From NCBI RefSeq assembly GCF_014199615.1, contig NZ_JACHOB010000001.1, forward strand, positions 124,001-188,000: 64,000 bases of DNA. Direction: 5' to 3'. A program made the position numbers and the translations under genes. Position 1 is the first letter of the stretch, and the number at the start of each line of letters is the position of its first letter. This DNA comes from Parvularcula dongshanensis. Its GTDB lineage: Bacteria; Pseudomonadota; Alphaproteobacteria; Caulobacterales; Parvularculaceae. Below are positions 44,288-47,763 of the stretch, one piece after another. The notes beneath the pieces were generated by a model that was not told the origin of the DNA, ran no database searches, and saw only the letters and a list, made by a program, of their open reading frames with translations.

Positions 44288-44953
44288 ATGCCCGAGATCA
44301 TCTTCCCCGGCCCTGATGGGCGCATCGAGGGGCGCTATCAGAAGGCGCGCGCGGACAACGCGCCGATCGCCATGATCCTTCATCCGCACCCGCAGTTCGG
44401 GGGCACGATGAACGACAAGATCACCTACGAGATGTACCACATGTTCGCGCGCCGGGGCTTCTCGGTCATGCGGTTCAACTTCCGCGGCGTCGGCAAGTCC
44501 GAAGGCGAGTACGATCAGGGCCAGGGCGAACTGTCGGACGCGGCGACCGCGCTCGACTACCTCCAGCAGATGAACCCCGCCGCGCCCTTCGCTTGGGTCG
44601 CGGGCTTCTCCTTCGGCGCTTACGTCGGGATGCAGCTCTTGATGCGGCGGCCGGAGATCGTCGGCTTCATCTCGATCTCGGCGGCGGCGAACCTCTTCGA
44701 CTTCAGCTTCCTTGCCCCCTGCCCGTCTTCGGGCGTCGTGATCCACGGCAGCGAGGACAAGATCTGCCCGCCGAGCCTGACCCGCGACGTGATGGCGAAG
44801 ACGCGGACCCAGAAGGGTCGCCGGATCGAGTTCGACGTCATCGACGGCGCCGACCACTTCTTCTCGAAGCACGAGGAGCAGCTTCTGGACAAGGCGGCAG
44901 GCTACCTCGACCGGCGGCTGCAGGAGCCGCCCGAAGGCCACCTCTTCGATTGA
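44288..44953 (+). CDS. Alpha/beta hydrolase of the COG2945 type
   Basis: 221 residues. HPHPQFGGTMND oxyanion region, FNFRGVGKSEGEYDQG, nucleophile elbow GFSFGAYVG near residue 112, acid region GSEDKICPP and the histidine in DGADHFFSKH. Cytosolic, no signal. Substrate unknown. Divergent from the suf operon and sharing its spacer, which may imply shared control. Converges on cytochrome b561 with a 3-base gap. Confidence 0.85.
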   Translation: MPEIIFPGPDGRIEGRYQKARADNAPIAMILHPHPQFGGTMNDKITYEMYHMFARRGFSVMRFNFRGVGKSEGEYDQGQGELSDAATALDYLQQMNPAAPFAWVAGFSFGAYVGMQLLMRRPEIVGFISISAAANLFDFSFLAPCPSSGVVIHGSEDKICPPSLTRDVMAKTRTQKGRRIEFDVIDGADHFFSKHEEQLLDKAAGYLDRRLQEPPEGHLFD

Positions 44954-44956
44954 GGC

Positions 44957-45598
44957 TCAGTGCGTGGGCGCCGCCTCGCGGCGCCCCGGCAGCATTCGGG
45001 CGAGCACGCCATCCCGGTCGACGTAGCGGTGCTTTAGCGCGCCTGCGATGTGCAGCGGGATGAGGCCGATGAAGCCGAAGGCGAGAAGCTCGTGCGCCTC
45101 TTCCCACAGCTCGTGGCTGCCGACCGCTGGCAGGTGCGGGACTGGGAAGAGGAAGAAGAAGTTCACCGAGCCCTCGTGCCCCGACACCATCAGCCAGCCC
45201 GCGAGCGGCACCGCGATCATCAACACGTAGAAGATCGCCTGCGTCGCCCGTGCGAAGAGCCGGTCCCAGGCCTTCGTCCCCTCGGGCAGCGGCGGCGGCT
45301 TGTGCGTCAGCCGCCAGACGAGCCTGAAGAGAGACAGGGCGAGGATGGTCAGCCCGTTAGACTGGTGGATGGTGAAGACGGCGCTCGCATAGCTCGCATC
45401 TTCCGGCAACTTTCCCATGACGATGCCGCCGACGAGCTGAAGGATGATCAAGGCTGCGAGTATCCAATGCAGCGCCTTGGCGACCGAAGTGTAGGCCCCC
45501 GGGGCGATACGGCTCCGCGCGAGGTCGGGGGAAGGAGCGTAGGAGGTCACACGCCGAGGATGCGGCGAAACGGGTGCCTCTGCAATCGGACGACGCAT
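44957..45598 (-). CDS. Cytochrome b561
   Basis: 213 residues with four membrane helices and the expected haem histidines: AKALHW, FTIHQSNG, WEEAHELL and LIPLHIAGALKH. Diheme b561 proteins move electrons across or within the inner membrane. A GTG at codon 18 (VTSYAPS) is an alternative start that would remove a polar, proline-rich lead. Confidence 0.88.
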   Translation of the reverse strand: MRRPIAEAPVSPHPRRVTSYAPSPDLARSRIAPGAYTSVAKALHWILAALIILQLVGGIVMGKLPEDASYASAVFTIHQSNGLTILALSLFRLVWRLTHKPPPLPEGTKAWDRLFARATQAIFYVLMIAVPLAGWLMVSGHEGSVNFFFLFPVPHLPAVGSHELWEEAHELLAFGFIGLIPLHIAGALKHRYVDRDGVLARMLPGRREAAPTH

Positions 45599-45693
45599 CG
45601 GCCGATCGCGTCACGGAAGTTTTCCCCTAACCGGAACCGAATCAGGGAAGGCTGGGTTCGCGAGGGGAAGGCCGGCGCCGCTAGCCTTCTGAA

Positions 45694-45700
45694 AAGGAGG
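45694..45700 (+). promoter_or_regulatory. Perfect Shine-Dalgarno for the leader ORF
   Basis: AAGGAGG, the full anti-16S match, five bases before ATG 45706. Few genes in this window have so good a site, which argues that the short frame behind it is translated. Confidence 0.65.
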
Positions 45701-45705
45701 GCTGA

Positions 45706-45816
45706 ATGCGTCCTGGCATCGTAAGGCTGCCCCGCCGCCACGCCCTCTGCCGCGCGACCGACCCCGCCCTTCCAGGCGGGGTTTTTTTACGCCCCAACCA
45801 CGGAGCCGCGTCATGA
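45706..45816 (+). CDS. Leader ORF of 36 codons upstream of and overlapping phoH
   Basis: A 36-residue Arg-rich frame (MRPGIVRLPRRHALCRATDP...) with a perfect ribosome site. It ends in TGA 45814-45816, overlapping the phoH ATG at 45813 as ATGA. An intrinsic terminator (45762-45788) lies wholly within it. The layout, leader peptide plus internal terminator plus coupled downstream gene, is that of an attenuator. The peptide is not loaded with one amino acid; arginine (6 of 36) is the commonest. It could instead be a chance frame over a small RNA. Confidence 0.45.
   Translation: MRPGIVRLPRRHALCRATDPALPGGVFLRPNHGAAS
45762..45788 (+). terminator. Strong intrinsic terminator in the phoH leader
   Basis: CCCCGCC (45762-45768), 6-base loop, GGCGGGG (45775-45781), then seven T residues. 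It is the clearest Rho-independent terminator in the window. A second CCCCGCC at 45730-45736 could pair with the right arm instead, offering an alternative fold. It ends 24 bases before the phoH ATG, so it governs read-through into phoH or ends a small RNA. Confidence 0.85.
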
Positions 45817-46589
45817 CCCGTCGATCCAGCAAGCGTTCAATCAAGCGTGCCGGCAAGGCCCAGTCCGAGGACCGCCGCGCCTGGGGACAGACCGACAACG
45901 TCCGTCCGCTCTTCGAGGACGGCTGGAGCCCGCTCGGGCCCGCCCCCGACGGCCCGCGCGACCAGTCCTACGTCAAGAACGTGCGCCCCCGTGGTGACAA
46001 TCAGGCCGAGATGATGGCGCTGATCGACGAGCGTTCGGTCGTCTTCGCGACCGGCCCTGCGGGTACGGGCAAGACCTACCTCGCCGTCGCCAAGGCCGTG
46101 GAAGCGCTCGAAGCGGGCGAAGTCGGGCGGATCGTCCTCTCCCGCCCCGCCGTCGAGGCCGGCGAGAGCTTGGGCTTCCTGCCGGGCGACATGGAGGAGA
46201 AGCTCTCGCCCTACCTCCGCCCGCTCTACGACGCGCTGACGGATAGGCTCTCGGCGAAGAAGGTCCGCGCCCTGATGGCGGAAGGCGTGATCGAGGTCGC
46301 CCCCATCGCCTTCATGCGGGGACGCACGCTGAACAACGCCTTCGTCGTCATCGACGAGGCGCAGAACTGCACCTACGCGCAGCTGAAGATGCTGCTGACC
46401 CGCCTCGGTTGGCACTCGACCATGGTCGTCACGGGCGATCCGGCCCAGTCCGACCTCCTGCCCGGGGTGTCAGGCTTGGCGGATATCGTAGAGAAGTTGG
46501 AGGGCGTTGAGGACATCGGTTGCGTGCGCTTCGTCCGCGAGGACGTCGTACGCCACCCCCTCGTTGCCCGAATGGTCGAGGCGATCTGA
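45813..46589 (+). CDS. phoH: PhoH-family ATPase
   Basis: 258 residues. A basic N-terminus, then the PhoH NTPase domain: Walker [12 protein letters not shown] at residues 81-91, [18 protein letters not shown], and Walker B VIDEAQN near 180 with TGDPAQSDL. PhoH proteins are RNA-associated ATPases, often linked to phosphate stress or ribosome maturation. This one is shorter than the PhoL-type form found beside ybeY and lacks that context. It has its own modest ribosome site GGAG at 45802-45805. Confidence 0.9.
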
Positions 46590-46590
46590 C

Positions 46591-46648
46591 GCGCTAGCTC
46601 AACAGGGCGTGACCGCGGCTATCGCAGCCGCGGTCACGCCGCTAGCGC
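46591..46648 (+). terminator. Large hairpin between phoH and the second LOV kinase
   Basis: Inner stem of 15 perfect pairs, GGCGTGACCGCGGCT with AGCCGCGGTCACGCC around ATCGC, plus outer arms GCGCTAGC (46591-46598) and GCTAGCGC (46641-46648) with a 7-base bulge on the left. It starts 2 bases after the phoH stop and ends 29 before the next ATG. No T-run follows, so it may be a barrier hairpin, an RNA stabiliser or a Rho-assisted terminator. Confidence 0.55.
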
Positions 46649-46677
46649 GTGCGGGCTTCGAACAATGAGAAACGCAG

Positions 46678-47763
46678 ATGAATGACGAGGGCGAGCAGGG
46701 CGAGGACCAGGACCAGGCCCATAGGCTTCCCGACGACGCGCCCGCACGGTTCAGAGCGAACAACCCCGAAGACCAGTTCTCCGGTGCCTCTGGCGTTCTC
46801 TTCGAACAGGCCATGGCACAGACCCGCATGGCGATCTGCCTTACCGATCCCAATCAGGAGGACGATCCGATCGTCTTCTCGAACCGGGCGTTCCGTGAAC
46901 TTACCGGCTACCTCGAAGAGGAGATCGTCGGACGCAATTGTCGCTTCCTGCAGGGACCGGACACGAATCGCGAGACCGTCGAGCGCATCTCGCAGGCGCT
47001 ACGGGACGAGGACGTGATCGTCGTCGAGCTTCTGAACTATCGCAAGGACGGCACGCCGTTCTGGAACGCGCTTCACATCGGGCCGATCTACAATCAGCAC
47101 AACGAACTGCTCTACTTCTTCGGCTCCCAATGGGACGTAACGGACGTCCACACCGCCCGGGCCGACGAGCGGCACGCGAAGACCCTCGCCCGGGAGTTGT
47201 CGCACCGGATGAAGAACATGTTCTCCGTCATCGGGGGCATCGTCACGGTGACGGGCCGGACGCGCGGCGTTCAGCGCGAAGCGGCCGAGATCAACGACCG
47301 TATCCAAGCGCTCGGCCGGGCCTATGAGACGACCCTCGACGACGCATCGGTCGGGACGATCGAGGTCGGCCAAGCGATCAGAGCCGTTCTTTCGCCCTAC
47401 GATCCCGAGGAAGACCGCATCAACTACCTCGGCAACGGCGTTCGCGTCGATCCGAACGTGGTCTCGACGCTCGGCCTGACCCTCCATGAACTGGCGACGA
47501 ACGCGTCGAAGTACGGCGCCCTGAGCCGGGACGACGGAACCGTCGACCTCGATTGGTATATCGAGGATACCGGCCAGAACGAAGGCAGGCTGGTCGTCGT
47601 CTGGACGGAAGCCGGCGGGCCCACCGTTCACGAACCCGTCAACCCGAGCGGAACCGGCAACGGTATCATCGACACGCTGCTCATGGCTGCCGATGGTCGC
47701 TTGGATCGCGATTGGCGTCCCGAGGGGCTCAAGGCGACGATTTGCGTCCCCATGGGAAGGTAG
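46678..47763 (+). CDS. LOV-domain HWE histidine kinase (LovK-like), copy 2
   Basis: 361 residues. LOV core with GRNCRFLQG (adduct cysteine near residue 88), NYRKDGTPFWNAL and FFGSQWDVTD; HWE kinase with ELSHRMKNMFSV near 175, LHELATNASKYGAL near 269 and VWTEAGGP near 309. Even the lead into the LOV domain is shared with copy 1 (FSGASGVLFEQAMAQTRMAIC against FAGASGIMFEQAMVQTRMAVC, abridged). Cytosolic. Followed 4 bases later by a receiver gene, as in copy 1. Confidence 0.92.
   Translation: MNDEGEQGEDQDQAHRLPDDAPARFRANNPEDQFSGASGVLFEQAMAQTRMAICLTDPNQEDDPIVFSNRAFRELTGYLEEEIVGRNCRFLQGPDTNRETVERISQALRDEDVIVVELLNYRKDGTPFWNALHIGPIYNQHNELLYFFGSQWDVTDVHTARADERHAKTLARELSHRMKNMFSVIGGIVTVTGRTRGVQREAAEINDRIQALGRAYETTLDDASVGTIEVGQAIRAVLSPYDPEEDRINYLGNGVRVDPNVVSTLGLTLHELATNASKYGALSRDDGTVDLDWYIEDTGQNEGRLVVVWTEAGGPTVHEPVNPSGTGNGIIDTLLMAADGRLDRDWRPEGLKATICVPMGR

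Follow-up and report, generated by a model that had tools for sequence, protein, structure and literature searches.

A reading frame spanning a conserved terminator upstream of phoH, a candidate transcription attenuator in Parvularcula and other Alphaproteobacteria

Why should a short open reading frame run through an intrinsic terminator and stop on the first bases of phoH? We addressed this question in a 64 000-nt stretch of a Parvularcula genome (G000, contig C1, positions 124001–188000; hereafter the window) and in the regions upstream of phoH in related bacteria. The first-pass annotation of the locus had proposed that translation of this leader controls termination before phoH. Compared with the alternatives, this is still the best reading, because the leader is conserved as a reading frame that reaches across the terminator as far as phoH.

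Layout of the leader and its terminator

The features of the locus, in window coordinates, are the following.

45639–45643, plus strand: GAATC, a site of the GANTC type near the presumed leader promoter (read from the sequence).
45694–45700, plus strand: AAGGAGG, the Shine-Dalgarno (SD) sequence of the leader frame (read from the sequence).
45706–45816, plus strand: leader frame of 36 codons, with ATG at 45706 and TGA at 45814–45816 overlapping the phoH start (ATGA).
45760–45783, plus strand: intrinsic terminator hairpin within the leader frame (folding, a simple scan and covariation of the counterpart hairpin in relatives).
45782–45788, plus strand: T-run of the terminator (T7), the predicted 3′ end of a short transcript.
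45813–46589, plus strand: phoH, 258 aa, PF02562, a short E. coli-type PhoH (PhoH match, E = 1.7e-84).

Both the perfect AAGGAGG and the 36-codon frame with its ATGA overlap are thus present as initially described. The frame ends at +4 relative to the phoH ATG at 45813, and the ATG at 45706 is the sole start codon of its open frame 5′ of the T-run. The top NCBIfam match of the phoH product, NF007827, scores 217 bits, under its cut-off of 380. The 36-aa leader peptide matched no family in Pfam (E up to 0.001) or NCBIfam (E up to 1). Past the other end of phoH, between it and a PAS/HWE kinase gene, lies a perfect inverted repeat, GGCGTGACCGCGGCT-ATCGC-AGCCGCGGTCACGCC (46606–46640), which is self-complementary at 30 of 35 positions and has no T-run.

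The terminator hairpin, GACCCCGCC-CTTCCA-GGCGGGGTT, folds with a dG of −17.6 kcal/mol, and its T-run is 7 long; a simple scan of 44500–47500 recovers it with 9 pairs. The claim that it is the strongest terminator of the window stands by its T-run and falls by its energy: no other of the 68 window candidates (dG −8 or lower) reaches 7 T in 8, but 18 of them have a lower folding energy, with 5 or 6 T in 8 in each of the 15 that were listed. Of 74 mechanically called gene starts in the window, just 2 are preceded within 130 nt by a hairpin (dG −12 or lower) and a T-run; the T-run of the second is poor, that of phoH being better. The thresholds used here and below (dG −12, −130 to −8, SD tetramers, stop at −15 to +9) were picked with part of the data known.

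The first-pass annotation had also noticed that the left arm CCCCGCC is duplicated 32 bases upstream, and had suggested that two left arms compete for one right arm. The duplicate is indeed present (45730–45736), but the competition has to be rejected. Base pairs of the local hairpin have probabilities of 0.86–1.00, those of the alternative 0.00, and forcing the alternative costs 17 kcal/mol. Moreover, the copy is not unusual by chance, since 173 of 2000 dinucleotide-shuffled versions of 45701–45760 contain one, and another genome of the same genus (G002) shares the leader layout yet lacks it.

As a separate observation, in the predicted fold of 45690–45800 the leader SD is partly paired (45696–45702 with the C-rich 45742–45748). 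Such pairing could tune leader initiation; the z of the fold is only −1.62, with 18 of 200 shuffled sequences reaching an equal or better fold.

Upstream of the leader, a promoter scan of 44500–47500 returned no sigma-70-like site. The GANTC site, which we take to be linked to CcrM methylation, is similarly placed in aligned Caulobacteraceae leaders (as GATTCG) and in four Parvularcula relatives (G001, G003, G005 and G009; GCGAATCAG), and several leaders from other orders also contain GATTCG. The leaders of Caulobacteraceae share a conserved, promoter-like block (TTTAA-N7-TAAACC..TAGCAT..GATTCG), roughly −235 to −300 from phoH, with resemblance to a CtrA box and a GANTC methylation site.

Occurrence and conservation in relatives

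The comparison was based on 130 regions upstream of phoH (80 from named loci and 50 from other genomes, the upstream DNA of the latter being taken from 50 of 61 genomes), reduced to 119 after removal of sequences identical over the last 150 nt. For other orders we started from 153 genomes, 140 of them with a match, and used 25 short-PhoH loci (L133–L157, E of 6.2e-88 or better); L158–L160, which probably encode longer forms of PhoH, were excluded. The assignments of loci to Caulobacteraceae or Parvularculaceae are our own, by name or likeness.

Of 68 named loci outside Parvularculaceae, most of them from Brevundimonas, Caulobacter, Phenylobacterium, Asticcacaulis and Oceanicaulis, 66 have a terminator upstream of phoH, as do 16 of 17 further genomes from other families of the order and 15 of 25 genomes of other orders; these counts come from a folding-based search, which in a few cases (L047, L062 and L156) settled on a poor hairpin. 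For comparison, control genes in the loci of the named relatives have a terminator upstream in 30 of 358 cases, and one with its T-run at −45 to −15 in 3 of 358. These controls are mechanical ORFs of at least 120 aa with an SD, many of them mutually orthologous, and the T-run was itself part of the hairpin search criterion. In Parvularculaceae the terminator is rare: it was seen in 3 of 23 genomes of the family (the window genome, G002 and G006) and in 1 of 11 named loci (L062, doubtful). The hairpin of G006 is bulged, and a gap-free stem search misses such hairpins. Since most Parvularculaceae genomes seen have no terminator, phoH can do without it. The phoH start of four terminator-less Parvularcula loci (L052, L053, L054 and L055) carries a conserved CCGCACCGTAAAGGAGATGCGTC block, possibly another control.

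Where present, the terminator goes with phoH, because the upstream neighbour is on the other strand and no gene on the same strand needs a terminator. In the window this neighbour is a cytochrome b561 gene; among named upstream regions the gene upstream is likewise on the opposite strand in 65 of 75, coding for a different protein. The nearest long ORF was called on the plus strand in 25 of 74 upstream regions, most of these apparently being antisense shadows. We therefore reject the terminator as the end of an upstream gene. A phoH promoter downstream of the terminator, with which the first-pass reading would be at odds, is geometrically unlikely, because the gap between the T-run and the phoH ATG is 24 nt (45789–45812) and is occupied by the phoH SD. 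The distance from the terminator to phoH is similar in two neighbourhoods. In the window −31 is the first position of the T-run, and in 55 of 64 Caulobacteraceae leaders this position falls between −20 and −41. In six Brevundimonas-group leaders (L061, L063, L070, L077, L084 and L108) the T-run is at −63, with about 39 nt extra before phoH. In several of these the extra stretch is a second terminator-like copy whose T-run has decayed (..GDAFPASPFFMP..GDAFSASSSSMP..); because the insert is 39 nt, the leader frame stays open.

The first-pass annotation had proposed looking for covariation of the leader in relatives, and the stem does covary. We aligned 41 leaders by sequence only; they comprise the window and the 43 distinct named hairpins less three (L087 and L093, for which a different, longer hairpin had been picked, and L102). 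In this alignment 83.5% of stem cells pair, a percentage favoured by the pre-selection of leaders for having the hairpin. Changes on both sides of the stem are more telling for the same reason: there are 64, against 26.0 ± 4.5 after shuffling (none of 500 shuffles reaches 64), and the number falls to 15–26 when the partner is slid. Judging from this pattern, the hairpin is kept as a structure.

The reading frame is conserved in a different manner. We compared 375 of the 1953 pairs that 63 Caulobacteraceae leaders form (those 60–95% identical; the pairs are not independent). The frame that ends at phoH has 0 stops in 12823 codon comparisons, the other two having 106 in 12505 and 49 in 13195. 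Its pN/pS is 0.73 versus 1.06 and 0.86, and 500 of 822 gaps between paired leaders are multiples of three. A stop within −150 to −3 occurs in this frame in 4 of 64 sequences (29 and 14 in the others), and an SD with a start codon at −135 to −190 in 37 of 64 (10 and 3). Few stops combined with a pN/pS of 0.73 imply that the constraint on the peptide is weak while that on the open frame is clear. Mid-leader sequence is poorly conserved although the frame is kept. Many Caulobacteraceae leader peptides share endings (..PFFMPWRRP, ..RPFFMPEWRL) in which Phe codons come from the T-run. Within the genus of the window, G002 has a frame that, like that of the window, has 36 codons, starts at −107 and ends in ATGA despite much divergence of the leader, and G006 has a 45-codon frame that begins with GTG and ends at −5.

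An SD-started frame running through the hairpin and stopping at phoH is present in 39 of 63 Caulobacteraceae (mean of shuffled sequences, 4.7), in all three Parvularcula with the terminator (0.2) and in 12 of 33 members of other families and orders (1.8; the 12 include relatives, e.g. L080, L088 and L107), so that 24 of 63 and 21 of 33 fail the test. None of 200 shuffles of the segment 5′ of the hairpin equalled the observed values, although shuffles ignore relatedness and the natural biases of intergenic DNA. Counted over 35 clusters of similar leaders, the through-frames number 18.7 versus 2.1 (sd about 1.4); L062 was left out of both counts. As far as such comparisons can tell, the leader is clearly kept as an open frame extending across the terminator to phoH.

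A candidate mechanism and its alternatives

What the sequences establish, then, is a terminator, its covariation, a leader frame with a start signal and a stop at phoH, and the recurrence of this arrangement in several families and orders. We consider it probable that the phoH leader is a transcription attenuator working through coupling between the ribosome and RNA polymerase, and we infer that it is transcribed and translated in Parvularcula. Transcription would start upstream of 45694. By default the terminator (45760–45788) would halt most polymerases, because it lies only 54–82 nt past the leader start codon, so early that a ribosome would not usually be near. A ribosome following closely would cover the left arm of the hairpin, the hairpin would not form and the polymerase would read into phoH. 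Close following could result from a slowed RNA polymerase (e.g. at low NTP) or from efficient leader initiation, and a ribosome ending at ATGA could pass to the overlapping phoH start. The leader frame would thus be kept for placing the ribosome and not for its peptide.

The signal that throws the switch is the least certain step; NTP level or polymerase speed is our tentative suggestion. In Caulobacteraceae the stretch before the hairpin is rich in C+T (76% at −30 to −21 and 83% at −20 to −11) and might slow the polymerase at low UTP or CTP; in the window this tract is weak (62% C+T over 50 nt). In a wider and rather speculative form, the phoH leader would be an old alphaproteobacterial sensor that compares the speed of RNA polymerase (NTP supply) with that of the ribosome and increases an RNA-processing ATPase only if transcription falls behind, as under starvation for carbon or glutamine, the sensing element being the reading frame itself instead of a ligand or a codon run.

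Leader frames next to terminators also occur in attenuators that sense amino acids (of the trp/ilv or mgtP kind), where stalling at particular codons lets an alternative hairpin replace the terminator. Both ingredients, frame and terminator, exist here, an ilvIH leader attenuator has been shown in Caulobacter (PMC4117421), and leaders with proline codons are known (PMC3641672). However, the phoH leader frame crosses the terminator rather than stopping before it, and the window leader has neither a codon run nor a competing fold. In Caulobacteraceae leaders none of Pro, Arg and Gln exceeds both other frames by more than 0.2 points, and PP does not stand out (31 of 64 in the leader frame, 27 and 42 in the others). 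Val and Asp are about twofold more common in the leader frame (Val, 7.9% versus 3.6 and 3.8; Asp, 4.9% versus 1.9 and 2.5). Because of these figures we rated amino-acid sensing slightly up, and coupling slightly down. Sensing of a specific codon is disfavoured, with the Val and Asp excess leaving some room in which it may operate, and we regard this explanation as improbable.

Equally improbable, in our judgement, is that the leader serves to make a small RNA of about 150 nt with its 3′ end at the T-run, phoH readthrough being incidental. Conservation of the terminator would fit, as would the promoter-like block and the C+T-rich stretch of Caulobacteraceae. The poor conservation of mid-leader sequence in a kept reading frame speaks against it, as do the similar terminator–phoH distance in the two neighbourhoods and the outcome of an Rfam search, in which no covariance model matched within the window at gathering thresholds. 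Such an RNA would in any case equal the terminated product of the phoH leader. Plain translational coupling, in which only the stop/start overlap matters and the hairpin is a coding accident or an mRNA stabiliser, is very improbable: the ATGA overlap recurs in the window, in G002 and in many Caulobacteraceae leaders, but alone it is weak evidence, because ATGA yields a free stop whenever the second codon begins with A, and the hairpin covaries and, with its T-run (a part of the search criterion), occurs near phoH far above control genes.

Attenuation through ribosome–polymerase coupling can also be set against published expression data. CC_2644, a Caulobacter PhoH-family gene and CtrA target, is up 44.56-fold after carbon starvation (PMC3073932). 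CCNA_02727 is reported to be up 10-fold in an ntrC mutant and to return to wild type with glutamine; the Caulobacter phoH-family gene is described as forming an operon with a small hypothetical gene, and its induction by carbon limitation and heavy metals is also cited. CC_2644 and CCNA_02727 are probably one gene, orthologous to phoH of the window, and CCNA_03973 probably precedes it and corresponds to the leader frame. Caulobacter ribosome profiling yielded 94 new CDSs, some apparently leader peptides (PMC4117421). PhoH is down under copper in Caulobacter swarmer cells, the PhoH concerned being unspecified in the source (PMC8224329). The expression of the Caulobacter gene fits attenuation without proving it, and the inductions could be explained by the promoter (CtrA, NtrC) alone.

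Comparison with known systems

By the features of trp- and his-type attenuators the window leader is a poor match, as it lacks a codon run, its frame crosses the terminator and the alternative fold is not competitive. The Salmonella mgtCBR leader (mgtM, mgtP) is similar in that short frames tune transcription into an operon (PMC3641672), but it uses mutually exclusive stem-loops and specific codons, neither of which was found in the window. Closer in taxonomy is the S. meliloti DUF1127 leader, also an alphaproteobacterial frame before a regulated gene, whose uORF senses translation and acts as an attenuator of the following gene (PMC12218461). In that leader the sole candidate for an intrinsic terminator could be mutated without effect, and a possible rut site within the frame was proposed (PMC12218461), whereas the phoH leader has a strong, conserved intrinsic terminator.

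The nearest counterpart is E. coli pyrBI, where a leader frame (pyrL) likewise crosses an intrinsic terminator before the structural gene. Ribosomes repress intrinsic terminators, and that of pyrBI lies inside a 135-bp leader gene (PMC4824070); preventing it needs tight coupling across pyrL (PMC5021804). Suppression of termination by a ribosome near the polymerase, as reported for pyrBI (PMC4824070, PMC5021804), is what we propose for the phoH leader. The two share a leader frame that spans the terminator (in the window and part of the relatives), a terminator close before the gene and a frame that ends beyond it. In attenuators of this type readthrough goes up as UTP falls and depends on translating the leader. 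The pyrimidine-rich pause tract that lies between leader start and terminator in such systems has a strong counterpart in Caulobacteraceae and a weak one in the window. Unlike in pyrBI, the gene is phoH and not one of pyrimidine synthesis, and the leader stop overlaps the start of the structural gene. The phoH leader would therefore work like pyrBI without being a pyrBI attenuator, because the gene it would control is phoH. Among the titles and abstracts listed by literature searches, none described an attenuator or a leader frame of phoH, and PMC2965389, on premature terminators, contained no match to the terms tried. In the literature searched, the device itself is known from another operon, with no description of it for phoH. 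Attenuation by coupling, best known from E. coli pyrBI, would then also act on a stress gene, across several families and orders of Alphaproteobacteria.
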